Part shown: positions 1 to 11,350 of the stretch, in pieces | Position numbering within the stretch: position 1 is the first letter of the stretch | Layout of the letters: each line of letters begins with the position of its first letter | Origin: Deltaproteobacteria bacterium | GTDB taxonomy: Bacteria; Desulfobacterota; DSM-4660; Desulfatiglandales; Desulfatiglandaceae | Length of the DNA: 64,000 nt | Assembly: GCA_021737785.1 (NCBI GenBank) | Contig: JAIPDI010000018.1 | Span: 1-64,000 of the forward strand | Direction of reading: 5' to 3' | The notes under the pieces: model-generated | Told to the model about the DNA's origin: nothing | Database searches by the model: none | The model's input: the letters and a program-made list of their open reading frames with translations, nothing else | Position numbers and translations under genes: made by a program

Positions 1-449
1 GTCTCATGCTTGAACTGATGGCCAGAGGCGGGATGAGGGTTGGTGAAGTCCTGAAACTCAGGGCGATGGACGTCCATGACCGGAAACTGACGCTGAGGGA
101 CCCGAAAAGCGGCAAAGAACGGGAGTATGTTTTCATCCCACAGAAAGTGGCTGACCGGCTCAAGGAATACATCAGGGACAACGGGATTCACCCGGACCAG
201 AGAATTTTTCCCTTGTCCTACGAGGCCACACGTAGCATGGTGAAAAAGGCAGGCAAAAGGGTCGGGATTCGGCTCAGGCCCCATGATCTCAGGAGACATG
301 CTGCGACATATGCCTCTCGGTCAGGTGTGCCCATCGAGATCGTGTCAAAAGTCATCTTACGGCATGCGAACCTGTCAACTACCCAGATTTATTTGGGAAA
401 AGTGCCTGACGCCGAGGCTATGAGGTGGATCGAGAACATCTATGCGTAA
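1..449 (+). CDS. Tyrosine recombinase/integrase, catalytic C-terminal part (5' end outside window)
   Basis: The open frame enters from the left edge, so this is the catalytic domain of a longer protein. Counting from the first in-window Met (base 6), the catalytic residues of the lambda-integrase/Xer family are visible: Arg11 in GGMRVGEVL, the H-x-x-R box at His93-Arg96 (HDLRRHAAT), His120 in LRHANLSTTQ, and the nucleophile Tyr129 in TQIYLG. The enzyme would cut and rejoin DNA at specific sites through a 3'-phosphotyrosine link. The TAA stop falls exactly where repeat copy A begins, so this recombinase may act on that repeat family. It could equally be a prophage or stand-alone XerC/D-like enzyme, because the DNA-binding arm is not in view. 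Confidence 0.9.
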   Translation, partial: LMLELMARGGMRVGEVLKLRAMDVHDRKLTLRDPKSGKEREYVFIPQKVADRLKEYIRDNGIHPDQRIFPLSYEATRSMVKKAGKRVGIRLRPHDLRRHAATYASRSGVPIEIVSKVILRHANLSTTQIYLGKVPDAEAMRWIENIYA

Positions 450-930
450 CGTGATCGGGCCGGGGTGGAGGCCATAAAGGCCTTCAGCCCTGCTGACTCT
501 TTTCGAATGACATATCCAATTGATATTAATAGACTTATTGGCATGCAAAGCCTGCCAGAGATGGCAGATATCCGTCAAAATCGGTGGTGCTGAATTTGTG
601 GGTTATCCAAAAGGAAAGCGCGGCGATCTTATTCTTGTAACACTGCTGATTAGGACCGGTTTCAGCCGCTGATACATCTAAGCAAAATATGATCAATCTT
701 AGCTCAATCGACAGCTTTCCGTTCTGATAGTGAGTCTATTTGGAAAACATTGCCTGTTTTGGTTGCACGGAAAGATCTCATGTGGTAGATATTCACTGAA
801 TCATTTGAAGCAGGACCCCCAATATCTTGTGGGTGCCAGAAAAGTTGAATGAATTCATAGGGCTGGGACCGACGTAGGCATATCTCAGGTTTTTGCTGGG
901 CCAGAATCTATGAGATTACGAAAATATATC
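447..930. repeat. Long intergenic repeat, copy A
   Basis: Copy A starts at the recombinase stop codon. Bases 447-700 align with copy C, and bases 518-900 align with copy B. Landmark words keep nearly the same spacing from the central palindrome (552-567, CTGCC-N6-GGCAG): a TTTTGGTTGC word at +205, a CCAGAAAA word near +287, and an ATAGGGCTGGGACC word near +305. I estimate 65-80% identity by eye. The minus-strand frame reading RSQPYEFIQLFWHPQDI is open in A but shifted in B. The A/B differences there are mostly amino-acid changing, so I do not read it as a protein under selection. The stretch 931-1341 up to the next gene shows nothing else I can name. Confidence 0.7.
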
Positions 931-1341
931 TGGCTATTTCGCATAGCCGACAGAAGAATCATATTCCATATTCACCAAGCCGCCGGGATCGGGGATATCC
1001 CAAGTACCGGTGGTCTATGATGGACTATGGATAAAACTCCGGACCTATGTCTCTTGTACGCCACCGGATTATCCCACACATACCGAAGAACCATTTCTGT
1101 TGACTTACTTGGCAAGTTGTTGCTGATAAGCCAAACACTCCTACCAAACCCATAACCTCGTAACAGGGGGTTATTGCATGGAGCAACCTCTCAAAATCTG
1201 TTGAGAATGTTTTCCGTTCGGAGGCACTGTCCGGATGGAGCGACTGTAAGCCTGGGAACATGGTCTTTTCAAAACCAGATTCAAACATTTGATAGTCAAA
1301 TTAATATCAACAGCGTTTCGCAACATTTGAAGGAGGTCCAA

Positions 1342-1941
1342 ATGAAAAGAGGAATCGTTTTTATCGGCGCTGCATTATCGTTATTAATTATGGCATCCCA
1401 ATCAACTGGTGAGATGAAGATAACCCCTGATGGCGTGACATTTCCAAACGCCTCCACCCAGACCATGGCCGCTACCCCGCCGTGGTCGCAGATATTGCCG
1501 GCTGCTGATCGATTTCAGCTCGTGATGGGAAGGCTTGTGCTCGACCCCATCGTCCATATGGAATACCCTGCCGTTCTGGACAAAGAGACGGGGCTTGTCT
1601 GGCAGCGAGACACGGATAACGCCCTACGAGACTGGAATGGAGCTTGCGCTTATTGTTACATGTTGAGTCTGGGAGGCCGCAAAGGGTGGCGGCTTCCGAC
1701 CATAGAGGAGTTGTCCAGTCTGGTGGATCCAAGCCGAACCGACCCGGCCTTGCCAGAAGGCCATCCGTTTACCAATGTGAAAGTGGCTGATTTTCACTGG
1801 TCGAGCAGTAGTACCTACGCGGGCTACCCGGACGGCGCGTGGTACGTCGATTTCGACTTTGGGTTCGTGCACTACTACGCTAAGACGGGTGACTATTACG
1901 TCCGTTGTGTGCGCGGCGGACATGGGTATGATGCTCGGTGA
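1342..1941 (+). CDS. Exported DUF1566 (Lcl-type) domain protein
   Basis: This 199-residue protein begins at ATG 1342, chosen because AAGGAGGT lies 7 bases upstream. The open frame extends further 5' but without a ribosome site. Residues 1-25 form a signal peptide (Lys-Arg, then a hydrophobic stretch ending near SQSTG). The ITPDGVTFPNASTQT segment after it is common in deltaproteobacterial surface proteins. Residues 75-195 form the DUF1566/Lcl domain: GLVWQRD, then GGRKGWRLPTIEELSSLVD, then a Trp/Tyr-rich end with WSSSSTYAG and YVRCVRGG. Family members are extracellular and some bind host or matrix polymers; the target here is unknown. The domain has a C-type-lectin-like fold also used by diversity-generating retroelement targets, but no reverse transcriptase is nearby. 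Confidence 0.8.
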   Translation: MKRGIVFIGAALSLLIMASQSTGEMKITPDGVTFPNASTQTMAATPPWSQILPAADRFQLVMGRLVLDPIVHMEYPAVLDKETGLVWQRDTDNALRDWNGACAYCYMLSLGGRKGWRLPTIEELSSLVDPSRTDPALPEGHPFTNVKVADFHWSSSSTYAGYPDGAWYVDFDFGFVHYYAKTGDYYVRCVRGGHGYDAR

Positions 1942-2174
1942 TTGGATGATTTGAATTATTTGGTTATTGCAGTCTTGAGGGGGTACAGGGGGATTGTATC
2001 GCCCTGTTCGCGACCATTTTTTGAGACTCGACCGAAAGACGTGAAAGACGGGGTGCACTGAATTTAAAAATGGCCTATAAAGGTAAGCTGGAGAAGTTCT
2101 CCAAGGGCATTGGCTGTTTAAGCCAAAAAATGTATTTCAGGTTACCTGCTGATACGGCGGTTCAGACACGCTGA

Positions 2175-2488
2175 TCACCGAAGGCCCGCAAACAACAGAC
2201 GAAACGCATCAAGCAAACGGGCGTAACAGGTCGCTCGATCAAGACCATCCTCGGATAAGGCGTCAATGGGGCAGGCCTCTATACACTTCCCACCGTCCTT
2301 CTTTTTGCCATCTGCCAGTTCATCACGCCAGCCGGTTGCAGTGGCCGTATTTCTCTCAGACGCAGAAATCGATTGTCGGCCTTTGCACAGGCCATCATGG
2401 GCTTCCGCCAAATGTTTATCTGATTGTATTCCTCCGGGTAGCTGGCAGCGTAGTCTATGAGCCATTGCGAAAGTGTTTCGAAATCCAT
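2175..2488 (-). pseudogene. Degraded 4Fe-4S double-cluster (epoxyqueuosine reductase-like) protein
   Basis: Two overlapping minus frames each hold part of one protein. The first, from ATG 2488 with an AAAGGAA ribosome site, reads MDFETLSQWLIDYAASYPEE and then NIWRKPMMACAKADNRFLRL, which resembles the N-terminus of COG1600-like Fe-S proteins. The second, ending at 2175, reads GGKCIEACPIDALSEDGLD...CYARLLD, the ferredoxin-like cluster motif near the C-terminus of the same family. The middle is missing and the frame changes, so I call an internally deleted, frameshifted remnant. It lies 52 bases downstream of the HAD gene on the same strand, suggesting a former operon. The family assignment is moderate because little sequence is left. 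Confidence 0.55.
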
Positions 2489-2540
2489 AATTCCATTCCT
2501 TTTAAGCGATTGTCCGATTGCCGCAAAGGTGCCATGAAAA

Positions 2541-3245
2541 TCATACCCCCAGCTTGCGGCACAGCTCGTCGAAGTCCCGGGCTTCAATATCGAAATTGGG
2601 GTCATCCGGCTCCTCAAAACCTTCCGCCATGTTGTCCTCTTCAGGGACGTTGACATATGCCGTATGCAAACCGGCAGCCCGGGCTGCAGCCAGATCCCCT
2701 TCATGGGCAGCCACCATTATGGCTTCAGACGGCTTCAGCCCCAAAAGCCCTGTTGCTTTCAGGTAGGCCTGTAAAGACGGTTTGTAATAGCCCAAGAATT
2801 CACAGGACAAAATGCCGTCCCATTGGACACGGGCTCTCTTGGAACTCTGAACGATGCTCTCCCAACTCAAAATGGTGAGCACCACGACCGTGTATCGGGT
2901 CCGCAATCGGTCGATGGCTTCAGCCGCACCAGAAAAGGGCTTGAGATGACTCCAGGTCATTTCGACCAGAGATGTTTTGTCAAGCCCGTCCAGCAGTGGA
3001 TAGTCGCCCGCCATGTTCACCAATGCCTGAAGATGCATGTGGTCGGCGTTCATCCAAGGCAGGTTTCCCTGCCTGACTTGGGTATGAACCTTGAACATCT
3101 CTGCCCGCCACGCATTGGCAAAAGCGTCACTGTCGATAATCTCTCCTTTTTCATCGGCCAGTTTCTGAATGTTTTCCCGGGCCGTGTTCTTCCAGTCAAA
3201 CACGGTGCCCCCGACATCGAAAAATAGTCCTTTGACATTGTCCAT
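2541..3245 (-). CDS. HAD-superfamily hydrolase, haloacid dehalogenase type II-like
   Basis: This 234-residue protein starts at ATG 3245 behind TGGAGG. Motif I is FFDVGGTVFDW with nucleophile Asp10. Motif III is the Lys of YYKPSLQAYLKA, and motif IV is MVAAHEGDLAAARAAGL, a form typical of the (S)-2-haloacid dehalogenase subgroup. Motif II (VVLTILSWES) departs from the usual S-N-G end. Members hydrolyse C-halogen or phosphate bonds through an aspartyl intermediate in the cytoplasm; substrate cannot be read from sequence. The gene is followed by the broken Fe-S gene and lies between repeat copies A and B, away from core operons, consistent with an accessory function. Confidence 0.85.
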   Translation of the reverse strand: MDNVKGLFFDVGGTVFDWKNTARENIQKLADEKGEIIDSDAFANAWRAEMFKVHTQVRQGNLPWMNADHMHLQALVNMAGDYPLLDGLDKTSLVEMTWSHLKPFSGAAEAIDRLRTRYTVVVLTILSWESIVQSSKRARVQWDGILSCEFLGYYKPSLQAYLKATGLLGLKPSEAIMVAAHEGDLAAARAAGLHTAYVNVPEEDNMAEGFEEPDDPNFDIEARDFDELCRKLGV

Positions 3246-3787
3246 ATGGCCTCCAGTGGTCTTGATAAGCCGATTTCCATTCAGACGCTTCTGACAATGA
3301 ACCTGAAACTAAACCCCGATGTTGCACAAAATTTCGGAAGCTGCTTGAAATGAATCGCGTATGTGAGCTTGGAAGCAGCTGTCGAATGCCCTGCAAGGAC
3401 CTCATCATCTGTGCTGTCCCGGATAGGGCGGGTCAAGTGGTTTTGGCACATATATAGCAGGATATACCATTGCTTCATGCGGTTTTTAATGCAACATCGG
3501 GGTGAAACAAAAACGTTGTGCATTTCCTGTTGATTTAGATCTTCTACCCATTTAATGGAACAAAACCTTCTTTGATCCAACTGGTAACCAATGACCCCTT
3601 GTAATCGACTTTGTATCCCAATGATTTCATAGCATTCTCTTCAGTCTGAGTGACAATGATGACAAGCTTTAAAGACATGATCCCGGCCACTGAATTCAAG
3701 AATTTGCTGTTGGTCGGCTACCGAGAACTGATAGTCGTCGTTCACGGTACGGCGAAAAATTCGAGGTATGGTGCGTCTTTTCCGGTA
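3246..3787. other. Gene-free stretch with an inverted-repeat relic
   Basis: No convincing gene was found here on either strand; the 99-codon minus frame has no recognisable motif or ribosome site. The only structure is the terminal-inverted-repeat element annotated at 3313-3504. Confidence 0.6.
3313..3504. repeat. Candidate MITE or insertion-sequence remnant with 14-bp terminal inverted repeats
   Basis: ACCCCGATGTTGCA at 3313-3326 is repeated exactly in inverted orientation as TGCAACATCGGGGT at 3491-3504, giving a 192-bp unit. The interior has no open frame of transposase type. This is the layout of a non-autonomous miniature element or an internally deleted IS. I cannot identify the parent family, and no target-site duplication is obvious. 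Confidence 0.5.
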
Positions 3788-4551
3788 CTATTTGAACGAT
3801 CCGTGTCGTCCCATGCCTCCCGCAAAACGTGATGCTCCCTTTACAGTCTCCCCGCTTTCGATCGTCGCCAATCCAAGCTTAAACTCATTTTTCATGGCTT
3901 CTTCAAAAGACAATTCCAACGCTTCATAAGCGGAACGTCTATCGGACAGCACACAGTTCCAGGGGAACTGAGCGATTTCAAGGGCCAATTCTTCGGCCTG
4001 CTCTCTGGATTTTCCGTAAGGAACCACCCGGTTGGCTAGGCCCATCCTGAGCGCCTCCTCGGCGCCTACGGGCCGACCCGTCAGGATCATATCTAAAGCG
4101 TTGGAGACTCCGATCAATCGAGGCAAACGGACCGTGCCGCCGTCAATCAAGGGAACACCCCAACGTCGACAGAAGACGCCAAAAACGGCGTCTTCGTCCA
4201 TGACCCGAAGATCACACAGCAGGGCCAGTTCCAACCCTCCGGCCACGGCGTACCCGCTCACTGGGCAATGACTGGCTTGGGCAACTTCATGCGTGAAGGT
4301 CCCATGGGGGCATTGTCATCGGTTAACCAGCGATGGAAAATCCCCTTTGACAGAGATTTCAGGTCGGCACCTGCGCAAAAACAGTTGTCCGCCCCGGTCA
4401 GCACGGCCACTCTGGCATCCTTATCCGCCTCAAAATCTCGAAATGCATTGGCCAACGCCTTGGCCGTCGATGGATCTACGGCGTTGCGCACTTCCGGGCG
4501 ATTGATGATTATTGTTGTGACACGTGCTTCTTTTTCAATGATCACATTCAT
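3788..4551 (-). pseudogene. Enoyl-CoA hydratase/isomerase (crotonase), split by a frameshift
   Basis: The N-terminal half (from ATG 4551) carries the first oxyanion-hole segment, NCFCAGADLKSLS, and stops after KPVIAQ at 4258. The C-terminal half continues in another frame with SGYAVAGGLELALLCDLRV, then GVPLIDGGTVRLPRLIG, the active-site region of crotonases. Together they make about 250 residues, the normal family length. One missing G in CAG(G)TGAGC would explain the break. The two frames overlap as GTGA, so translational coupling is formally possible, but a frameshift is simpler. Crotonases act on enoyl-CoA thioesters in beta-oxidation and related pathways. A sequencing error cannot be excluded. 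Confidence 0.8.
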
Positions 4552-5670
4552 TCTTATTCTCCCTCGTCAAGCCACTAATCCGGATCTAATCTTCTCTGCT
4601 TTAGCCCTAATTTTATCCATATCGCCGGGAATCAAACTCCTTTCAATCTCACGTCGCAATTTTCTTTCATCGTACCGAAATTTGAAGAAAATTGTCAACA
4701 AGGGAATCCATTCCATCCATTCCATGAATCTGCATCTGTATAATAAGCAGCGGGAGGCTCCATGTCCTAATCAAATACAGACATTCAGCTGGCGGTTTTG
4801 AAAAGATGAGTAGATTGAGATCGCTTCAGATGCTTATAGTCTATCTAATTGATATTGCAGAATATTTAGCATCGAGGATGCTGCCAGAGATGGCAGATAT
4901 CTCAGGTTTTGAGAGGTCGCAATTCTTTGATATATCCAGAAGATAAGCCCGGTGGCTCCCTAAAGTTACTCCTCTCTGTTACGGCCGTCCAAGTCATTAA
5001 AAAAGATCATGCAAAACCGATCAACCTTGCCCCTATCGATATCTTTCCCTTTCAATAAAGACACTCTTAGAAAAGATCGTCTATTTTGGTTGCGCGTAGA
5101 GACGTGGTGTAGTAAGTATCAACAGAATCTCGCGGAACGGCACACCGCAATATGTTGTGGCTGCCAGAAAAACCTAATGAATCCATAGGGCTGGGACCGA
5201 GTAGGCATATGTAGCGTTTTTGGTGCGCCGAAATTTTTGAGGTTTCCAAAAGATGTACGAATGAAAGGACACACCGCTTCTGCGGATTTACAGCAAGCCG
5301 CTGAGTTGGAAGTCCAGTCCTGGAAATCACAGTGACAACCCCCATTTCCCGATATTCCCGAATAGCGGGAAAAGAACTTCTGGATACGCTGGATTTTCCT
5401 CCCCAAAGATCTCCCCAGCTTCAGTCAGCTGATAACGTTGGCAGTTGCAAGTCACGTGGCGACGGGTGATGGTGATTTTGCATGATTGCGGGTCAGCTCT
5501 ACTGCTGACTGTTAGTCTCTTAAATGAAAACTGGCGTTCTCCGGTGGCTAAAGAGCCGGGCGATATCCTGCACAGGAATGGAACGATTGAGAAGAGATGA
5601 AGGCGAAAAAGGCCTATTAAACAACAATTTGGTGAGTGGAATTGTCGGAAAAAATCGAAAGGAGAAACCG
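4552..5670. other. Gene-free stretch of 1.1 kb containing repeat copy B
   Basis: Apart from repeat copy B (4840-5260) I see no gene. The small open frames on both strands have no ribosome sites or recognisable motifs. The last 400 bases lead to the C45-family lipoprotein gene without a clear promoter. Confidence 0.6.
4840..5260. repeat. Long intergenic repeat, copy B
   Basis: Copy B is collinear with copy A from AATTGATATT (4847 versus 518 in A) to the ATAGGGCTGGGACC word (5184) and a few tens of bases further. The central palindrome CTGCCAGAGATGGCAG is at 4881-4896. Distances from palindrome to landmarks differ by only one or two bases from copy A across more than 300 bp, although about a third of the positions differ. 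Confidence 0.7.
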
Positions 5671-7254
5671 ATGAAAAAGATATCTTTTTCCAGGATTGTA
5701 TATTTGCTGTTAGCCTTGTGTTTTGGCACAGTTTTGGGGTGTTCAAGCGATAGCAGTGACACCCGCAAAGATTACAGCTATCTATTGAAGGGGGCCTTTC
5801 TTGAACAGCCTTCGGGAGAAAATCATCCCGCTATTTTGCATATTGAAGGCAATCATTATGAAATGGGCTTTCAGCAGGGATACCTTCTGGCGGATCGTAT
5901 CGCAGAGGCTTACAGCGCCTTTTTCACATTCACCGCATACCTGTATCATATTTTTCAGGGTGAAGAGATGGTGGTTCTCGAACAGACGCAGTTGAAGGCG
6001 TTTCATGAACTGCTGATTCAACAGTCCAAAAAATACTTCCTGAATGTTATTCAAGAGAAAACCCCCGAGCTTTTGGAGGAAATTCAGGGAATGGCGGATG
6101 GTTTGGCTGCAAAAGGATCTCCTTTTGGTTTTGATGATATCGTTGCCATGGCAGGCCTAATAGACGTAGTGGACAATGAAAACATGCTTTTTCTTGAGTT
6201 TTTTGAATTGGCGCCTAATGTGGCTGAATTGTCCATTTCAGGACTCGCTTGCTCGGGCTTTGCCGCCTGGGGGTCCGCCACATTCGATGGCAGAATCATC
6301 CATGGTGCAAACCAGGATCTTGTCAGTGTCGGCCTGCTGGATCAGACCATTGTTACCGTTGCGAAACCCGATACGGGGAATGCCTTCCTTCAGGTGAGCT
6401 TTCCCGGATGGTTTACCATGTCCGGCATGAACGAGGCGGGAATAACGGCAAGTGAAATGGCTTCCCCTTCCTCGGATACAAATCTTCTCGAAAATCCGGA
6501 AATTCCCCATACCCTGCATATGAGGATGATGGTCCAGTACGCCAATGACCTGGAACAGGCAACGGAGACGATTAAAACCTACGGCGGTGCGTCCGGATGG
6601 AACATCCTGGTTTCGGACGCCAATACCGGAGAAGCGGTGGATATCGAATGTTCGACCCTCAAGATTGGTCCCGTCTATCCCTGGGATGATCCCGCAACAC
6701 CTTCGGTAAATGAAGCTCAAGGACTGTGTGTTACAAACCAGTATATGTCATGTCCCGGGTTCCGCGGTTATTCGGGTGAGAATCTGACCGTGGATCAAAT
6801 GCAATACGACGGCGTGGATACATCCTCGTGGGGCACGGGAGATGAATATATGGTTAATTGGGAAGCCCAATTTCAGAAACAAGATTATGCACGTTCGGGA
6901 TCATGGGATCGTTGGAGCCGATTATGGGATTTGTACGCTTCCAAATACGAGACGATTACCGTTGAAGATGTGATCGCATTCATGAGCGATACAAAAGAAG
7001 GGCCACACGGGGGAATTATTTCCCATGCCTCTGAAGAGATAATTTGGTTTGACGGTGAACCTGTGCCGCAAATAAATGGTCCCGACAAAGCGATCACATA
7101 TTATTCACTTGCGAGCGTGTACAGTTGTGTCTTTGACCCTGAATCGAGCACAAAGGGTGTCGTATGGGTCGCGGCGGCCGGGGCCAAACCTGCTCAAAAT
7201 GGCGCATTTTACCCCATTGATTTTGGAGATTCGCTGAATAAAACAAATCAATAG
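5671..7254 (+). CDS. C45-family (acyltransferase-like NTN hydrolase) lipoprotein
   Basis: This 527-residue protein starts at ATG 5671, preceded by AAAGGAGA. Residues 1-24 are a lipoprotein signal peptide with lipobox VLGC (Cys24), so the protein is anchored in an envelope membrane. The region GNHYEMGFQQGYLLADRI fits the N-terminal strand of the C45/phospholipase-B-like family. ACSGFAAWGSATFDG supplies the likely N-terminal nucleophile Cys194 after self-cleavage, followed by GANQDL. Family members hydrolyse or transfer acyl groups of linear amides; the substrate is unknown. The length and position of Cys194 imply a prosegment of about 170 residues. It lies directly downstream of repeat copy B and appears monocistronic. 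Confidence 0.8.
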   Translation: MKKISFSRIVYLLLALCFGTVLGCSSDSSDTRKDYSYLLKGAFLEQPSGENHPAILHIEGNHYEMGFQQGYLLADRIAEAYSAFFTFTAYLYHIFQGEEMVVLEQTQLKAFHELLIQQSKKYFLNVIQEKTPELLEEIQGMADGLAAKGSPFGFDDIVAMAGLIDVVDNENMLFLEFFELAPNVAELSISGLACSGFAAWGSATFDGRIIHGANQDLVSVGLLDQTIVTVAKPDTGNAFLQVSFPGWFTMSGMNEAGITASEMASPSSDTNLLENPEIPHTLHMRMMVQYANDLEQATETIKTYGGASGWNILVSDANTGEAVDIECSTLKIGPVYPWDDPATPSVNEAQGLCVTNQYMSCPGFRGYSGENLTVDQMQYDGVDTSSWGTGDEYMVNWEAQFQKQDYARSGSWDRWSRLWDLYASKYETITVEDVIAFMSDTKEGPHGGIISHASEEIIWFDGEPVPQINGPDKAITYYSLASVYSCVFDPESSTKGVVWVAAAGAKPAQNGAFYPIDFGDSLNKTNQ

Positions 7255-8050
7255 TGACTAAATGAAAAAATAGGAAAAGGCAATCAGAGCGACTGGAATA
7301 TGTTCTTTCGCTTGAAAGCTCAAATGGGCACTTCTGAATCATGGTTTTTGCCAAAACCTAAATAAAAAACCTCGAAAGACAAATTCTCTTTCATGCACAC
7401 GCCTCGAAATATGGCGTTCGGCTTACTGGGCGTACCCGATAGTAAGTCAACCAATTCAAATGTCTTGGTATCTTCATTCAGATGAGCGAAAAGTCGGCCA
7501 TGACACACGTGGAATTCGAGAGGCAAGGGCCTGTAAATATCTCAGGTATGTCAGGTGGAAGCGGTTGGGTAGATGCCATCTACCCAACGCTATTATTTGA
7601 AAGCGGCTTCAAAGCTTGTGTCAAGGACCCTTACATTTTGTGGGCAATTCCTATAACATGATGAGGACGGGGTGGAGGCTAGGACGGTCTTCACCCTGCT
7701 GACTCTTTTGTGTGGCCGTAGCTTATTGATATTAAATGCTTTATTGGCATACGCAGCTTGCCAGAGATGGCAGTTATCTGTCAAAAGGATTGGTACTGAA
7801 CCCGTGAGATAACCAGATGGTAACTCCGTGTCGCCCGGAGCTTTCCAACTCTCACAATTTCCTCCCATTCGCTGATCTCTCCGAATGAATATTATCGAGA
7901 TACCCGTAAGCAAAACGATTGCGGCTAAAAGGACCCTATGATAAAGTACCTCCCTCAAAAAGACGCATCGGCTGTTTGCCATTTTTCGCTTTTGGTTTCA
8001 TGAGACCCATCGGCTTACCCAATATCATCCGACATAGAGGAGTGATTTTT
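7255..8050. other. Gene-free stretch of 0.8 kb containing repeat copy C
   Basis: The part 7255-7650 shows no gene I can support; a 68-codon minus frame (7320-7526) has no motif and no ribosome site. From 7654 the stretch is repeat copy C, and its end leads to the S41 protease gene. Confidence 0.6.
7654..7905. repeat. Long intergenic repeat, copy C
   Basis: Copy C matches copy A from its first base. TAAC at 7654 corresponds to TAAC at 447, followed by CGGGGTGGAGGC, CCTGCTGACTCTTTT, TTATTGGCAT and the palindrome core TGCCAGAGATGGCA at 7759-7772. The spacing from the left end to the palindrome equals that of copy A (105 bases). To the right it follows A up to the CGCTGAT word (7870), then a deletion of about 50 bases seems to separate the copies. 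Confidence 0.65.
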
Positions 8051-9544
8051 ATGTTTCTCAAAAAGCCTTCTTTGTTAGTGATTTCTTGTGCTTTGTCATT
8101 AATCTTAACTGTGTCTTCCTGCAGCGATGACGATGGCAGCTCCACATCTGCCTATAGCCTACCCGAAACAGTGGATTACAGCACCCTTAGCTGGAGCGAG
8201 GCATTTGAGGCCGCGAACGCCAAATTCTCCAGGGAATATGCCTTTACGGAGTGGAAAGGTGTCGATTTTGGGAACCTCTATGCGAGGTTTGCACCAAGAA
8301 TTGCTGCGGCTGAGGCTGCGGCCGATACAGACACCTATTACCGTACGTTGAGAGAGTATCTTTTTTCCATTCCTGATGGTCATATTATGATTACCTCTCC
8401 CGATCAAGTCGGCCTTTCAGCGGACGAGATCGCAGGCGGGTTCGGTCTGGTCGCAGCTGAACTGGACGATGGCAGGATCATCGCCGCTGCCGTTACAGAC
8501 GGCGGGCCGGCCGCAAATGCCGGCATCCAGGTGGGAGCCGAACTCCTGGCCTGGAACGGTGTCCCAGTCGATGTGGCCGTAGAAGCAGTTTCCGTTCTTT
8601 GGAACAAAGAGCCGCCGGCTACGAATGAAAACAGGCGCATGGAAAAGATTCGCTTTCTCACCCGTGCCGCTGTTGGGGCGGCGAGAACCGTCGATTTCAG
8701 GAATCCCGGTGAAAGCGAACCTCATAGTGCTGTCATGATCGCAATCGATGACCACAAGAAGGGGCTGGATCTGGTCAATTTTGCCCCCAGTCCTGATATG
8801 GAAGATGTCATGAAACTGGTGGAATACCGGGTGTTGGACAGCGGCTATGGATATGTAAGGGTGTATGTTGAAAGTGATATGGATGGTGAATCCGAATATG
8901 CCTGGGCTGTATACGCCAAATTTGAGGAAGCCATTAAGTATTTTGTTGAACTAAACGTTCCGGGTCTCATCGTCGATTTGCGGGGGAATATGGGCGGATC
9001 GGATGAAACCGCAGCCGATCTTTCCGGATTTTTCTACAGAGAAGCCAGGCATTATGAAAACCAGTTCCTGTACAATGCACTGACCGGCGAATTCATGTGG
9101 GTGTTTATGGACGAGAAAGAGGGTGACATCCTTCCTATCCCCAAGCCTCTTGAGATAATGCCCCAAAGCGTCTATTACGGCGGTCCGGTCATCGCCCTTG
9201 TTAATCCGGCGTGCATCAGTTCAGGAGAAGGGATCGCCATGGGGATTAAGGGTTCTCCGAATGGGCGTGTGGTTGGCTTTTTCGGTACGAACGGGTCTTT
9301 TGGCATTACGGGCGGTACGATCATCATGCCTTATACATCGGAGTTCAGATGCGGGTTCGCATACCCGATCGGCCGCTCCCTCGATGCCGACTTCGTTGTT
9401 CAGATTGACAGCGGAAAGGATGGAAAGGGAGGCGTCTTTCCAAACAACCGTGTTCCTCGGACTTTGGAGAATGTGCTGGCTTATGCAAACGGTGATGACG
9501 TCGAATTGCAATTTGCCATCGCTATTCTTCAAAAGGGGAGTTGA
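8051..9544 (+). CDS. S41-family (tail-specific protease-like) peptidase, lipoprotein
   Basis: This 497-residue protein starts at ATG 8051 with AGAGGAG 9 bases upstream. Residues 1-24 form a lipoprotein-like signal ending in VSSC (Cys24) before a DDDGSS linker. After an N-terminal helical domain comes a PDZ-like segment (GGFGLVAAELDDGRI, GGPAANAGIQVGAELLAWNG, about residues 138-180). The protease core follows, with LRGNMGGSDE and NPACISSGEG, where Ser390 (S-x-x-E) is the likely nucleophile. Such enzymes are envelope serine peptidases of the C-terminal-processing/tricorn-core type. The catalytic Lys cannot be placed with certainty. The gene stands alone downstream of repeat copy C. Confidence 0.85.
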   Translation: MFLKKPSLLVISCALSLILTVSSCSDDDGSSTSAYSLPETVDYSTLSWSEAFEAANAKFSREYAFTEWKGVDFGNLYARFAPRIAAAEAAADTDTYYRTLREYLFSIPDGHIMITSPDQVGLSADEIAGGFGLVAAELDDGRIIAAAVTDGGPAANAGIQVGAELLAWNGVPVDVAVEAVSVLWNKEPPATNENRRMEKIRFLTRAAVGAARTVDFRNPGESEPHSAVMIAIDDHKKGLDLVNFAPSPDMEDVMKLVEYRVLDSGYGYVRVYVESDMDGESEYAWAVYAKFEEAIKYFVELNVPGLIVDLRGNMGGSDETAADLSGFFYREARHYENQFLYNALTGEFMWVFMDEKEGDILPIPKPLEIMPQSVYYGGPVIALVNPACISSGEGIAMGIKGSPNGRVVGFFGTNGSFGITGGTIIMPYTSEFRCGFAYPIGRSLDADFVVQIDSGKDGKGGVFPNNRVPRTLENVLAYANGDDVELQFAIAILQKGS

Positions 9545-10047
9545 CCAAAATTGCTCTGGAATACCCTATATCCTTGACTTTTGAATCCACACAAGAGGGC
9601 CTCTGCTCCTATAATGCTACATCAATTTCACGAAGTTATTTAATCAGGACATCCTGTTGAAGATGTGGTTTTTCTTGATTGAATTCACCAAAGATTTTAT
9701 GATAGGTTACGGCGAATAAGGATTGAACCTTTCAAATACCTCGGCGCGGCCATGTTCTATCTTCCAGCCAAAAAAGCCACTTTCATTATCCTTCTGAATC
9801 AGAGCAATGACTTTGGCGGAGCGCTCCGGATCTTTGTCTGCCTTGCCAATGCCGTTTTTCCAGGAACAATTCCAACAAAAGACCCTGAAATCCTGCCCGG
9901 TACTGAACAACGCTTTGTGATAAATTCAAAATAGGAGCGTGTATGTTCCATACCACTGCTTTTAAGCATCCGGATCGTAATTCTCGTGCTGTGGGTAACT
10001 CAGTATGAATGGGTGTTCAACACGTGAGAGAAAAGCGGAGGGTAAAG
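9545..10047. other. Intergenic stretch with a gene fragment
   Basis: Nothing is recognisable except the short beta-lactamase-like tail at 9728-9934 and the leader of the DUF2845 gene. Confidence 0.5.
9728..9934 (+). pseudogene. C-terminal fragment of a beta-lactamase-fold serine hydrolase (relic)
   Basis: The frame reads PFKYLGAAMFYLPAKKATF, then IILLNQSNDFGGALRIFVCL and ends NAVFPGT...IPTKDPEI. This resembles the last strand and helix of class C beta-lactamase/DD-peptidase-like hydrolases, where M-x-Y-L-P-x-K-x-A-T is a familiar end. None of the catalytic part (S-x-x-K, Y-x-N) is present upstream, so this is at most a remnant. The match is by recall of the family only. Confidence 0.35.
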
Positions 10048-10425
10048 ATGACTGAGATGAAAATGCAAATGGAATATGGGGTGTTTCTCATATTCACATG
10101 TCTTTTGATCGTATTTGCTGGCAGTGCTTCTGCCATCGCAGGGGCAAACTTCCGATGTGGCGGAAGAATTATAGCTGTGGGAGCTACTCGAGATTACGTT
10201 CTTGAGAAATGTGGAGAACCCACCAGCATTGAGGAAAGAACCGAAGGAATCGCGAGGGGATTCATGCACCGTTATCCGGAGGGCCATGAGGAACTCAAGT
10301 ATGTTCTTGGAAAAATACAGGTTGAGGTGTGGACCTACAATTTAGGGAGCACACAATTTATTCGATATCTCACTTTCCGAAACGGCAGGTTAGTTGCGAT
10401 TGAAACAGGAGGTTATGGCTATTAG
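10048..10425 (+). CDS. Exported DUF2845 domain protein
   Basis: The ATG at 10048 is chosen because CGGAGGG lies 6 bases upstream; the frame starts earlier without such a site. It encodes 125 residues with an N-terminal signal peptide (hydrophobic VFLIFTCLLIVFAG, small residues SASAIAGA at the cleavage region). The mature part matches the DUF2845 pattern: FRCGGRIIAVGATRDYVLEK, then CGEPTSIE, then VEVWTYNLGSTQFIRYL and FRNGRLVAIETGGYGY. The function of this family is unknown; members are periplasmic and about this length. Position at the end of the accessory region suggests a further exported cargo gene. Confidence 0.8.
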   Translation: MTEMKMQMEYGVFLIFTCLLIVFAGSASAIAGANFRCGGRIIAVGATRDYVLEKCGEPTSIEERTEGIARGFMHRYPEGHEELKYVLGKIQVEVWTYNLGSTQFIRYLTFRNGRLVAIETGGYGY

Positions 10426-10742
10426 AACTATCGCCAACTATTTTCCTTCTGAGCCATTTCAGTTTCGAATGAGAAAGGATGCTAATCTACTCAGAAGGTT
10501 TGGGGCAGCTCGGAATCCGGCCACCTGCGGGGCTTCGAGATCCCGATAGAGATCCCGAAGAGGCGTCGATCTCATGTAAAGTGCCTATGGTGGTGAAAGG
10601 AAACCGGTTTATTTTCATTCCCAAGGGCAGTTCACATAGAGTTTTAAGCGGTTGTCCATAATAAGCCCGGGTATCTCTCAAATCCTGTCCAAAAACAAGA
10701 CTCTGTAATCCCTGTGAACTCTGCGAGAGACACTCGGTGATG
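10426..10742. other. Intergenic stretch, nothing recognised
   Basis: This is a gene-free interval between DUF2845 and the toxin-antitoxin pair. A 60-codon plus-strand frame is present without a ribosome site or motif. No hairpin followed by a T-run was seen. Confidence 0.5.
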
Positions 10743-11033
10743 TCATTTCGCGGCATCAAGCCTCTTTTCTTTTTCGACCCGTTCGCGAAGCCAAATTGCC
10801 ATGAGTTGGGTGTGTGGAACGCCTTTCTTTCGGGCGAGGCGCTTGATCATCGAAAGATCAAAGGGGTCCATGCGGAGGGAGACGGGCTGACGGGGAGGAC
10901 GGGGAACCTGAAACGGCTCAGCGTCATTCAGCAATCCCTGAATCTGCTCAGGAGTCTCTCTCGAAATCTCCTTGTCCCACCGGACAGCCTCTTGTTTGAG
11001 ATTTTTTCTTGTCTTTTCTGGAATCCTGCTCAT
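10743..11033 (-). CDS. BrnA-like antitoxin
   Basis: This 96-residue protein starts at ATG 11033, which overlaps the toxin stop as ATGA; the longer open frame upstream is toxin sequence in another frame. The C-terminal half (RQPVSLRMDPFDLSMIKRLA, then KKGVPHTQLMAIWLRERVEK) has the ribbon-helix-helix look of BrnA/CopG antitoxins. The N-terminal half is charged and likely wraps the toxin. In BrnTA systems the antitoxin neutralises the RNase toxin and, as a complex, represses the shared promoter. The palindrome upstream of the toxin fits this. Toxin-first gene order is normal for the family. Confidence 0.75.
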   Translation of the reverse strand: MSRIPEKTRKNLKQEAVRWDKEISRETPEQIQGLLNDAEPFQVPRPPRQPVSLRMDPFDLSMIKRLARKKGVPHTQLMAIWLRERVEKEKRLDAAK

Positions 11034-11350
11034 TTCTTTATCCTCTTGAAATAGGCCTTTTGGGTGGTGTTCGACATGGGGAATGCCGTCACGCAACGCC
11101 ATGCGCCATACTGTGGATAAGGGGCAACAATCACTTCGATACATGTGCCCGAAGCGTCTGTGCCCCACAGCCGGTATCTATATTCACCTGATTTTATATG
11201 TTTTTTCTTCTGCTTAACAGCCAGGGTCGGAAACGGCCCCTCGCTGTAATAGACCTCTTCAACCTGCTCCGGGGTCAACCCATGCTCAGCAATATGGCTG
11301 ATATTGTCTTCGTCCCAATCAGGTGCAAGATTCTCATCAGGTCTAATCAT
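11030..11350 (-). CDS. BrnT-like ribonuclease toxin
   Basis: This 106-residue protein begins at ATG 11350. The opening DWDEDNISHIAEHGLTPEQV matches the BrnT pattern (WDE-x-N, then K/E-HG-V/L). It is followed by EVYYSEGP, an RYRLWGTDASGTCIEVIVAP strand pair and a basic end (FKRIKK), consistent with a RelE-like mRNA interferase. It is the first gene of a two-gene operon with the antitoxin (ATGA overlap). The promoter's -10 box ends only 6 bases before the ATG, so the transcript may be leaderless. The region around it is otherwise gene-poor. Confidence 0.8.
   Translation of the reverse strand: MIRPDENLAPDWDEDNISHIAEHGLTPEQVEEVYYSEGPFPTLAVKQKKKHIKSGEYRYRLWGTDASGTCIEVIVAPYPQYGAWRCVTAFPMSNTTQKAYFKRIKK

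Follow-up and report, generated by a model that had tools for sequence, protein, structure and literature searches.

A probable integron-like cassette system with site-like cores of about 58 bp beside a Xer-like tyrosine recombinase

Repeats and genes at the start of the contig

The window analysed here is the first 64 kb (positions 1 to 64,000) of contig C18 in genome G000, which is 5.33 Mb in size and comprises 96 contigs. It opens on the C-terminal part of a tyrosine recombinase, which is followed by the repeats and genes listed in Table 1. Two small overlapping ORFs on the minus strand at 10743-11350 resemble a BrnA/BrnT toxin-antitoxin pair by sequence and are putatively assigned as such.

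Table 1. Coordinates of the genes, cores and other features in the window.
Feature	Position	Strand	Remark
Tyrosine recombinase, C-terminal part (148 aa, PF00589)	3..449	+	Cut by contig start
Left flank of copy A	447..560	+	Common to copy C, the C34 copy and relatives' recombinase ends
GC-rich hairpin right after recombinase stop, GGGGTGGAGGCC-loop-GGCCTTCAGCCC	462..490	+	Fold z -2.58
Copy A, first core, L type	561..617	+	Site-like module
Promoter-like element TTGCACGGAAAGATCTCATGTGGTAGAT in leader	763..790	+	Pattern recurs at fixed offset in right flanks
Copy A, second core, R type	872..930	+	Related to L type, direct
Lcl_C domain protein (PF07603)	1342..1941	+	Cargo
HAD hydrolase	2541..3245	-	Cargo or chromosomal gene
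Enoyl-CoA hydratase as two ORFs	3788..4551	-	Likely frameshifted
Copy B, first core, L type	4889..4948	+	
Copy B, second core, R type	5198..5257	+	
Acyl-transferase-like protein (PF03417)	5671..7254	+	Cargo
Copy C, hairpin	7669..7696	+	
Copy C, core, L type	7766..7824	+	
S41 peptidase	8051..9544	+	Cargo
Leader (right-flank) fragment	9639..9751	+	87% identity to stretch 3' of core in G002 contig C99

The repeat copies A (447-930), B (4840-5260) and C (7654-7905), described in an initial annotation of this DNA, were found at these positions with a similarity far beyond chance, and copy A does begin at the stop codon of the recombinase as had been claimed. Positions 447-617 of A aligned to 7654-7823 of C with 74% identity (E = 3e-25), and positions 691-927 of A aligned to 5019-5254 of B with 72% identity (E = 6e-28). 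The three had been taken for copies of one long repeat; A and C, however, have the left half in common, and A and B mainly the right half together with a short matching stretch at the core. The homology of C to A sets in where A has the recombinase stop, yet no recombinase is present upstream of C.

The unit common to all three was a core of about 58 bp, ATGGCAGATATCTCA-N23-TGAGATATCCAGATGG. Two related cores lie in direct orientation approximately 310 nt apart in each of copies A and B, as evident from an HMM of the left module alone that also matched the right module, and copy C holds one. The conserved unit is this core, and the other roughly 400 nt belong to leaders and tails that vary, so that the repeats can be described neither as length-conserved nor as much longer than attC sites, to which the core is close in size. 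Judged by their sequences, the repeats are mosaics around a recombination-site-like core of about 58 bases in place of one three-copy repeat.

The core, its arrays and its flanks

The cores had the consensus ATGGCAGATATCTCAnnTTTTnGGTGGTGCTGAATCTTTGAGATATCCAGATGGTA, in which a centre of about 23 bp separates the inverted arms GGCAGATATCTCA and TGAGATATCCAGATGG. In the arms 80% of the cells paired, compared to at most 49% when slid, and covariation was weak. RNAalifold gave no consensus structure for the cores, and a reading of them as structured RNA was dropped for this reason.

Iterated profile searches of the genome and its relatives detected many partial copies. The repeat occurred in more than one copy and in association with a recombinase, and the two outcomes that the initial annotation had named as speaking against its interpretation are therefore absent. 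Cores were dispersed through G000 and related Desulfobacterales, and differed from one another by 20-30%. With a sequence-only model of the core and its surroundings, the matches at E <= 0.1, many of them weak and uncertain, numbered 18 in G000, 32 in the congeneric genome G002, 5 in G003, 14 in G018, 2 in G036 and 7 in the genome of locus L058. At E <= 1e-6 and with stricter filters the counts for the five family members were 11, 16, 3, 8 and 2. Some cores adjoined housekeeping genes outside clear arrays, for example after secG and before enolase (names from translations). At position 10374 of contig C85 in G000 (locus L046), a group II intron (Rfam RF02005) starts a few bases 3' of a core.

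The cores of G000 were clustered, with 5 pairs within 5 kb against 0.17 expected at random. Clear arrays contained just 2-4 cores per contig, and are perhaps longer than visible because the MAG contigs end at these repeats. Over 12 kb of a single strand, locus L058 displayed (gene names taken from translations) a beta-helix gene, a core, a histidine kinase, a core, small putative HicA/HicB-like genes, the recombinase, a hairpin, a repeat protein, a core, a transporter and a core. Four cores were present at L112 (G002 contig C23), with all genes on one strand. Among 43 cores, adjacent ones within 8 kb were co-oriented in 19 of 19 cases, even where the intervening genes differed in strand. Genes were on the same strand as the core in 32 cases and on the opposite strand in 8 upstream, and in 32 and 5 downstream; since neighbouring genes at these loci agree in strand by 145 to 65 regardless of cores, and ORFs of core neighbourhoods were called by length only, the co-orientation of the cores is the stronger sign.

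The 150 nt to the left and the 150 nt to the right were compared for all 903 pairs of the 43 cores; flank and array comparisons were made between species and between MAGs, in which misbinning is possible. G002 and G061 represent one sample, locus L057 and locus L056 of G036 one contig, and locus L059 belongs to G018. Left flanks were linked in 20 pairs and right flanks in 63, and no pair was linked on both sides, where about 1.4 would be predicted under independence. Unit-wise copying of the repeat would predict many pairs linked on both sides.

Sequence identity shifted abruptly at the core. Block X was 89-95% identical to the right of the core between G002 C23 and G000 C34, whereas the core itself was about 72-80% identical, the left flank was unrelated and the upstream gene was a different one. 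G002 C99 and G000 C17, like G002 C139 and G000 C85, matched to the left of the core and differed to its right, and blocks Y and X occurred in a different order in G002 and G000. Two cores of L058, at 6755-6810 and 10218-10273, had an identity of 98% across 56 bp, and their flanks were unrelated. At L062 and L063, where the recombinase is more distant (66% identical to the query), the recombinase unit formed a discrete block of about 1.09 kb (7831-8918, 96%) with unrelated flanks and with the same arm motif at its end, and a core of about 66 bp was in common between unrelated flanks. For block X the upstream unit keeps the site, in the manner of attC; this rule is not strict, as in the C99/C17 case the core itself differs too.

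The pattern TTGC-N-TGTGGTAAAT/TAGAT was detected at fixed offsets in 14 of 43 right flanks and in no left flank (shuffled mean 0.4) and is promoter-like in sequence; the 14 matches are not 14 independent events, since the flanks are related and the pattern was written after examples had been seen. A non-coding leader of about 500 nt was common to four cores in three genomes (right flanks of L056, L119, L055 and L117) and contained a terminator-like hairpin, AAAACCCCG..CGGGGTTTT, with different genes after it. ARPP-1, considered as a common cassette gene, was dropped, the matching part being the non-coding leader. Because one leader can stand before different genes, the limits of the cassettes are blurred.

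The recombinase and its relatives

A copy of the recombinase with 98% identity ends contig C34, and a pseudogene piece with 94% identity is located on C8. Against the C34 copy, dN was 0.009 and dS 0.30. The start of C18 and the end of C34 break at the same recombinase base, with about 139 identical bases and a difference of approximately 7% in the rest; this shared break reflects either an assembly repeat or recent homogenisation. The dN/dS of the recombinase was about 0.03-0.11, and by this measure the gene is under purifying selection. The R-K-HxxR-H-Y catalytic residues (R126, K149, H208, R211, H235 and Y244 in the family alignment) were invariant. Most of the recombinase relatives had a hairpin adjacent to the stop, in which, by eye, the stem was kept while the sequence changed.

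The best NCBIfam match was NF040815 XerA_Arch with 134.6 bits, under its cut-off of 220; XerD (74.7 bits, cut-off 329.6) and XerC (62.2, cut-off 335) also remained under theirs. With the IntI model TIGR02249 (cut-off 265), the best family member scored 60.2 bits, and only residues 4-172 aligned in the best stretch. Placed in a tree together with two genuine IntI and ten further tyrosine recombinases, drawn mostly from these genomes, the family formed one clade with 100/100 support. The two genuine IntI, of G000 and G003, carried the IntI-specific insertion (patch III), which was absent from 12 of 12 family members. The nearest PDB match was 4a8e (E 1e-15). An AlphaFold model with a mean pLDDT of 50 was left out of the evidence.

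Relatives of the recombinase were found mainly in MAGs of Desulfobacterales and once in a MAG labelled Nitrospirae. A phage or plasmid origin was dropped, given that IMG/VR contained no close relative and that in plasmid collections the best listed matches were about 31% identical and all were below 60%.

Among the 46 genomes of the host's family, cores were present in 5 of 5 with a recombinase at least 78% identical, compared to 2 of the 41 others (hypergeometric about 1.5e-5, hand-calculated). G003 and G068 had cores, and a recombinase was not detected in them. Genomes with only 51-66% identical recombinases contained no cores recognised by this core model, as expected if the sites diverge with the enzyme. 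No arrays were established around other distant recombinases (L079, L069, L074 and others), the repeats there being intragenic or unrelated. At L169 (G026 C456), a repeat of about 90-280 nt surrounds a 51% identical recombinase at 1238-1511, 10726-11000 and 4717-4810, and could be the site family of that recombinase.

At seven loci (L057, L058, L059, L060, L062, L063 and L073) the recombinase N-terminus contains an A8 run (AATTCACAAAAAAAATAC) soon after which the frame opened by AGGAGG-ATG stops, the catalytic frame lying at +1 relative to that of the start codon. L065 has an A7 run and L067 an A9 run; L064 and L069 have a single open frame throughout. The conserved A8 run with the change of frame suggests programmed frameshifting or slippage.

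Interpretation and comparison with known systems

The observations are probably best accounted for by a cassette system that resembles integrons but relies on a tyrosine recombinase other than IntI, and that is partly decayed in the window; copies A, B and C would be junctions in it. The idea of recombinase-made, integron-like cassettes put forward in the initial annotation gains support from the many co-oriented sites, the reassortment of flanks and the co-occurrence of recombinase and sites across genomes. A Xer-like recombinase of its own clade, presumably the neighbouring one, would act on sites of about 58 bp with two inverted arms and a centre of about 23 bp. It would pair two cores, and strand exchange, probably within the core, would swap what stands to the right or to the left and so insert, remove or reorder blocks. 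Such a block would consist of a leader with a promoter, one or more genes and a 3' flank, and blocks would be lined up unidirectionally behind different sites, like the cassettes of integrons. Circular cassettes may be the intermediates, and the A8 frameshift may limit the production of the recombinase.

An origin of the repeats as old dispersed non-autonomous elements (MITE- or REP-like) behind genes, with mosaics made by homologous recombination or gene conversion and the recombinase as a passenger, would suit copies that are diverged, partial and scattered, some of them beside housekeeping genes, and if they inserted behind genes, the orientation bias would in part be accounted for. We consider this origin unlikely, as no pair of cores is linked across both flanks, adjacent cores are co-oriented even when the genes between them are not, recombinase and cores co-occur, and the breakpoints fall at the core and not anywhere in the approximately 480 nt. 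A regulatory reading, with the repeats as conserved leaders or structured RNAs whose sequence sharing stems from regulation and not recombination, is very improbable. The junctions with a common right and an unrelated left side would then stay unexplained, the cores have no consensus fold, and Rfam searches of the window and the loci gave only the group II intron beside one core, even though the promoter-like element at its fixed offset agrees with regulation, as do the hairpins that follow the recombinase or occur in one leader family. G000 does contain two true IntI genes, C54:26461-27396 (439.7 bits) and C48:10365-11303 (364.6 bits), and the logic of the arrays is integron-like; that the cores are attC-like sites of these enzymes and the neighbouring recombinase is irrelevant is nevertheless hardly credible, since the RYYYAAC/GTTRRRY box pair was present in 0 of 43 cores on either strand, and G002, G018 and G061 have cores without an IntI above cut-off.

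We see an even chance that, alongside integrons and convergent with them, another platform for cassette shuffling exists here that needs no IntI, with a distinct Xer-derived recombinase clade in Desulfobacterota, sites of about 58 bp of its own, promoter-carrying leaders and a recombinase gene that retains an A8 frameshift. No description of this cassette system was found in the open PMC literature searched. If the reading is true, cassette shuffling would have originated more than once, or else have derived from an older Xer-like state, and tools that seek IntI plus attC would overlook such a system. It would also supply concrete sites and an enzyme for testing cassette shuffling without IntI and attC.

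The closest sequence relatives of the recombinase are found in the Xer/dif/pdif systems and archaeal XerA. Unlike in these, the recombinase scores under the XerA cut-off, the cores are many-copy and co-oriented, and their centre of about 23 bp contrasts with approximately 6 bp between the arms of dif and pdif, the latter known as pdif modules from Acinetobacter plasmids. A likeness to group IIC-attC introns is given by the single case in G000 C85, where the group II intron starts just after the core. The standard case of a tyrosine recombinase that stocks and reorders gene cassettes by way of short repeated sites is the integron, for which the IntI insertion and the attC boxes count as diagnostic. 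In integrons, sedentary chromosomal ones included, the IntI integrase works with attI and with attC cassette arrays; attC recombines as a folded single strand with a conserved hairpin, and circular cassettes are intermediates that the integrase inserts at attI. As in integrons, a tyrosine recombinase lies beside co-oriented short sites with inverted arms and with unrelated genes in between, the site mostly remains with the upstream unit (the block X case), toxin-antitoxin-like genes occur in one array, and flanks are exchanged at the site, here by sequence comparison. The recombinase differs from IntI in its low score, the missing insertion and its separate clade, and the cores differ from attC in lacking the boxes. 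Finally, the blocks here often exceed 1 kb and have a leader and a promoter-like element of their own, and several small arrays and scattered sites are present.
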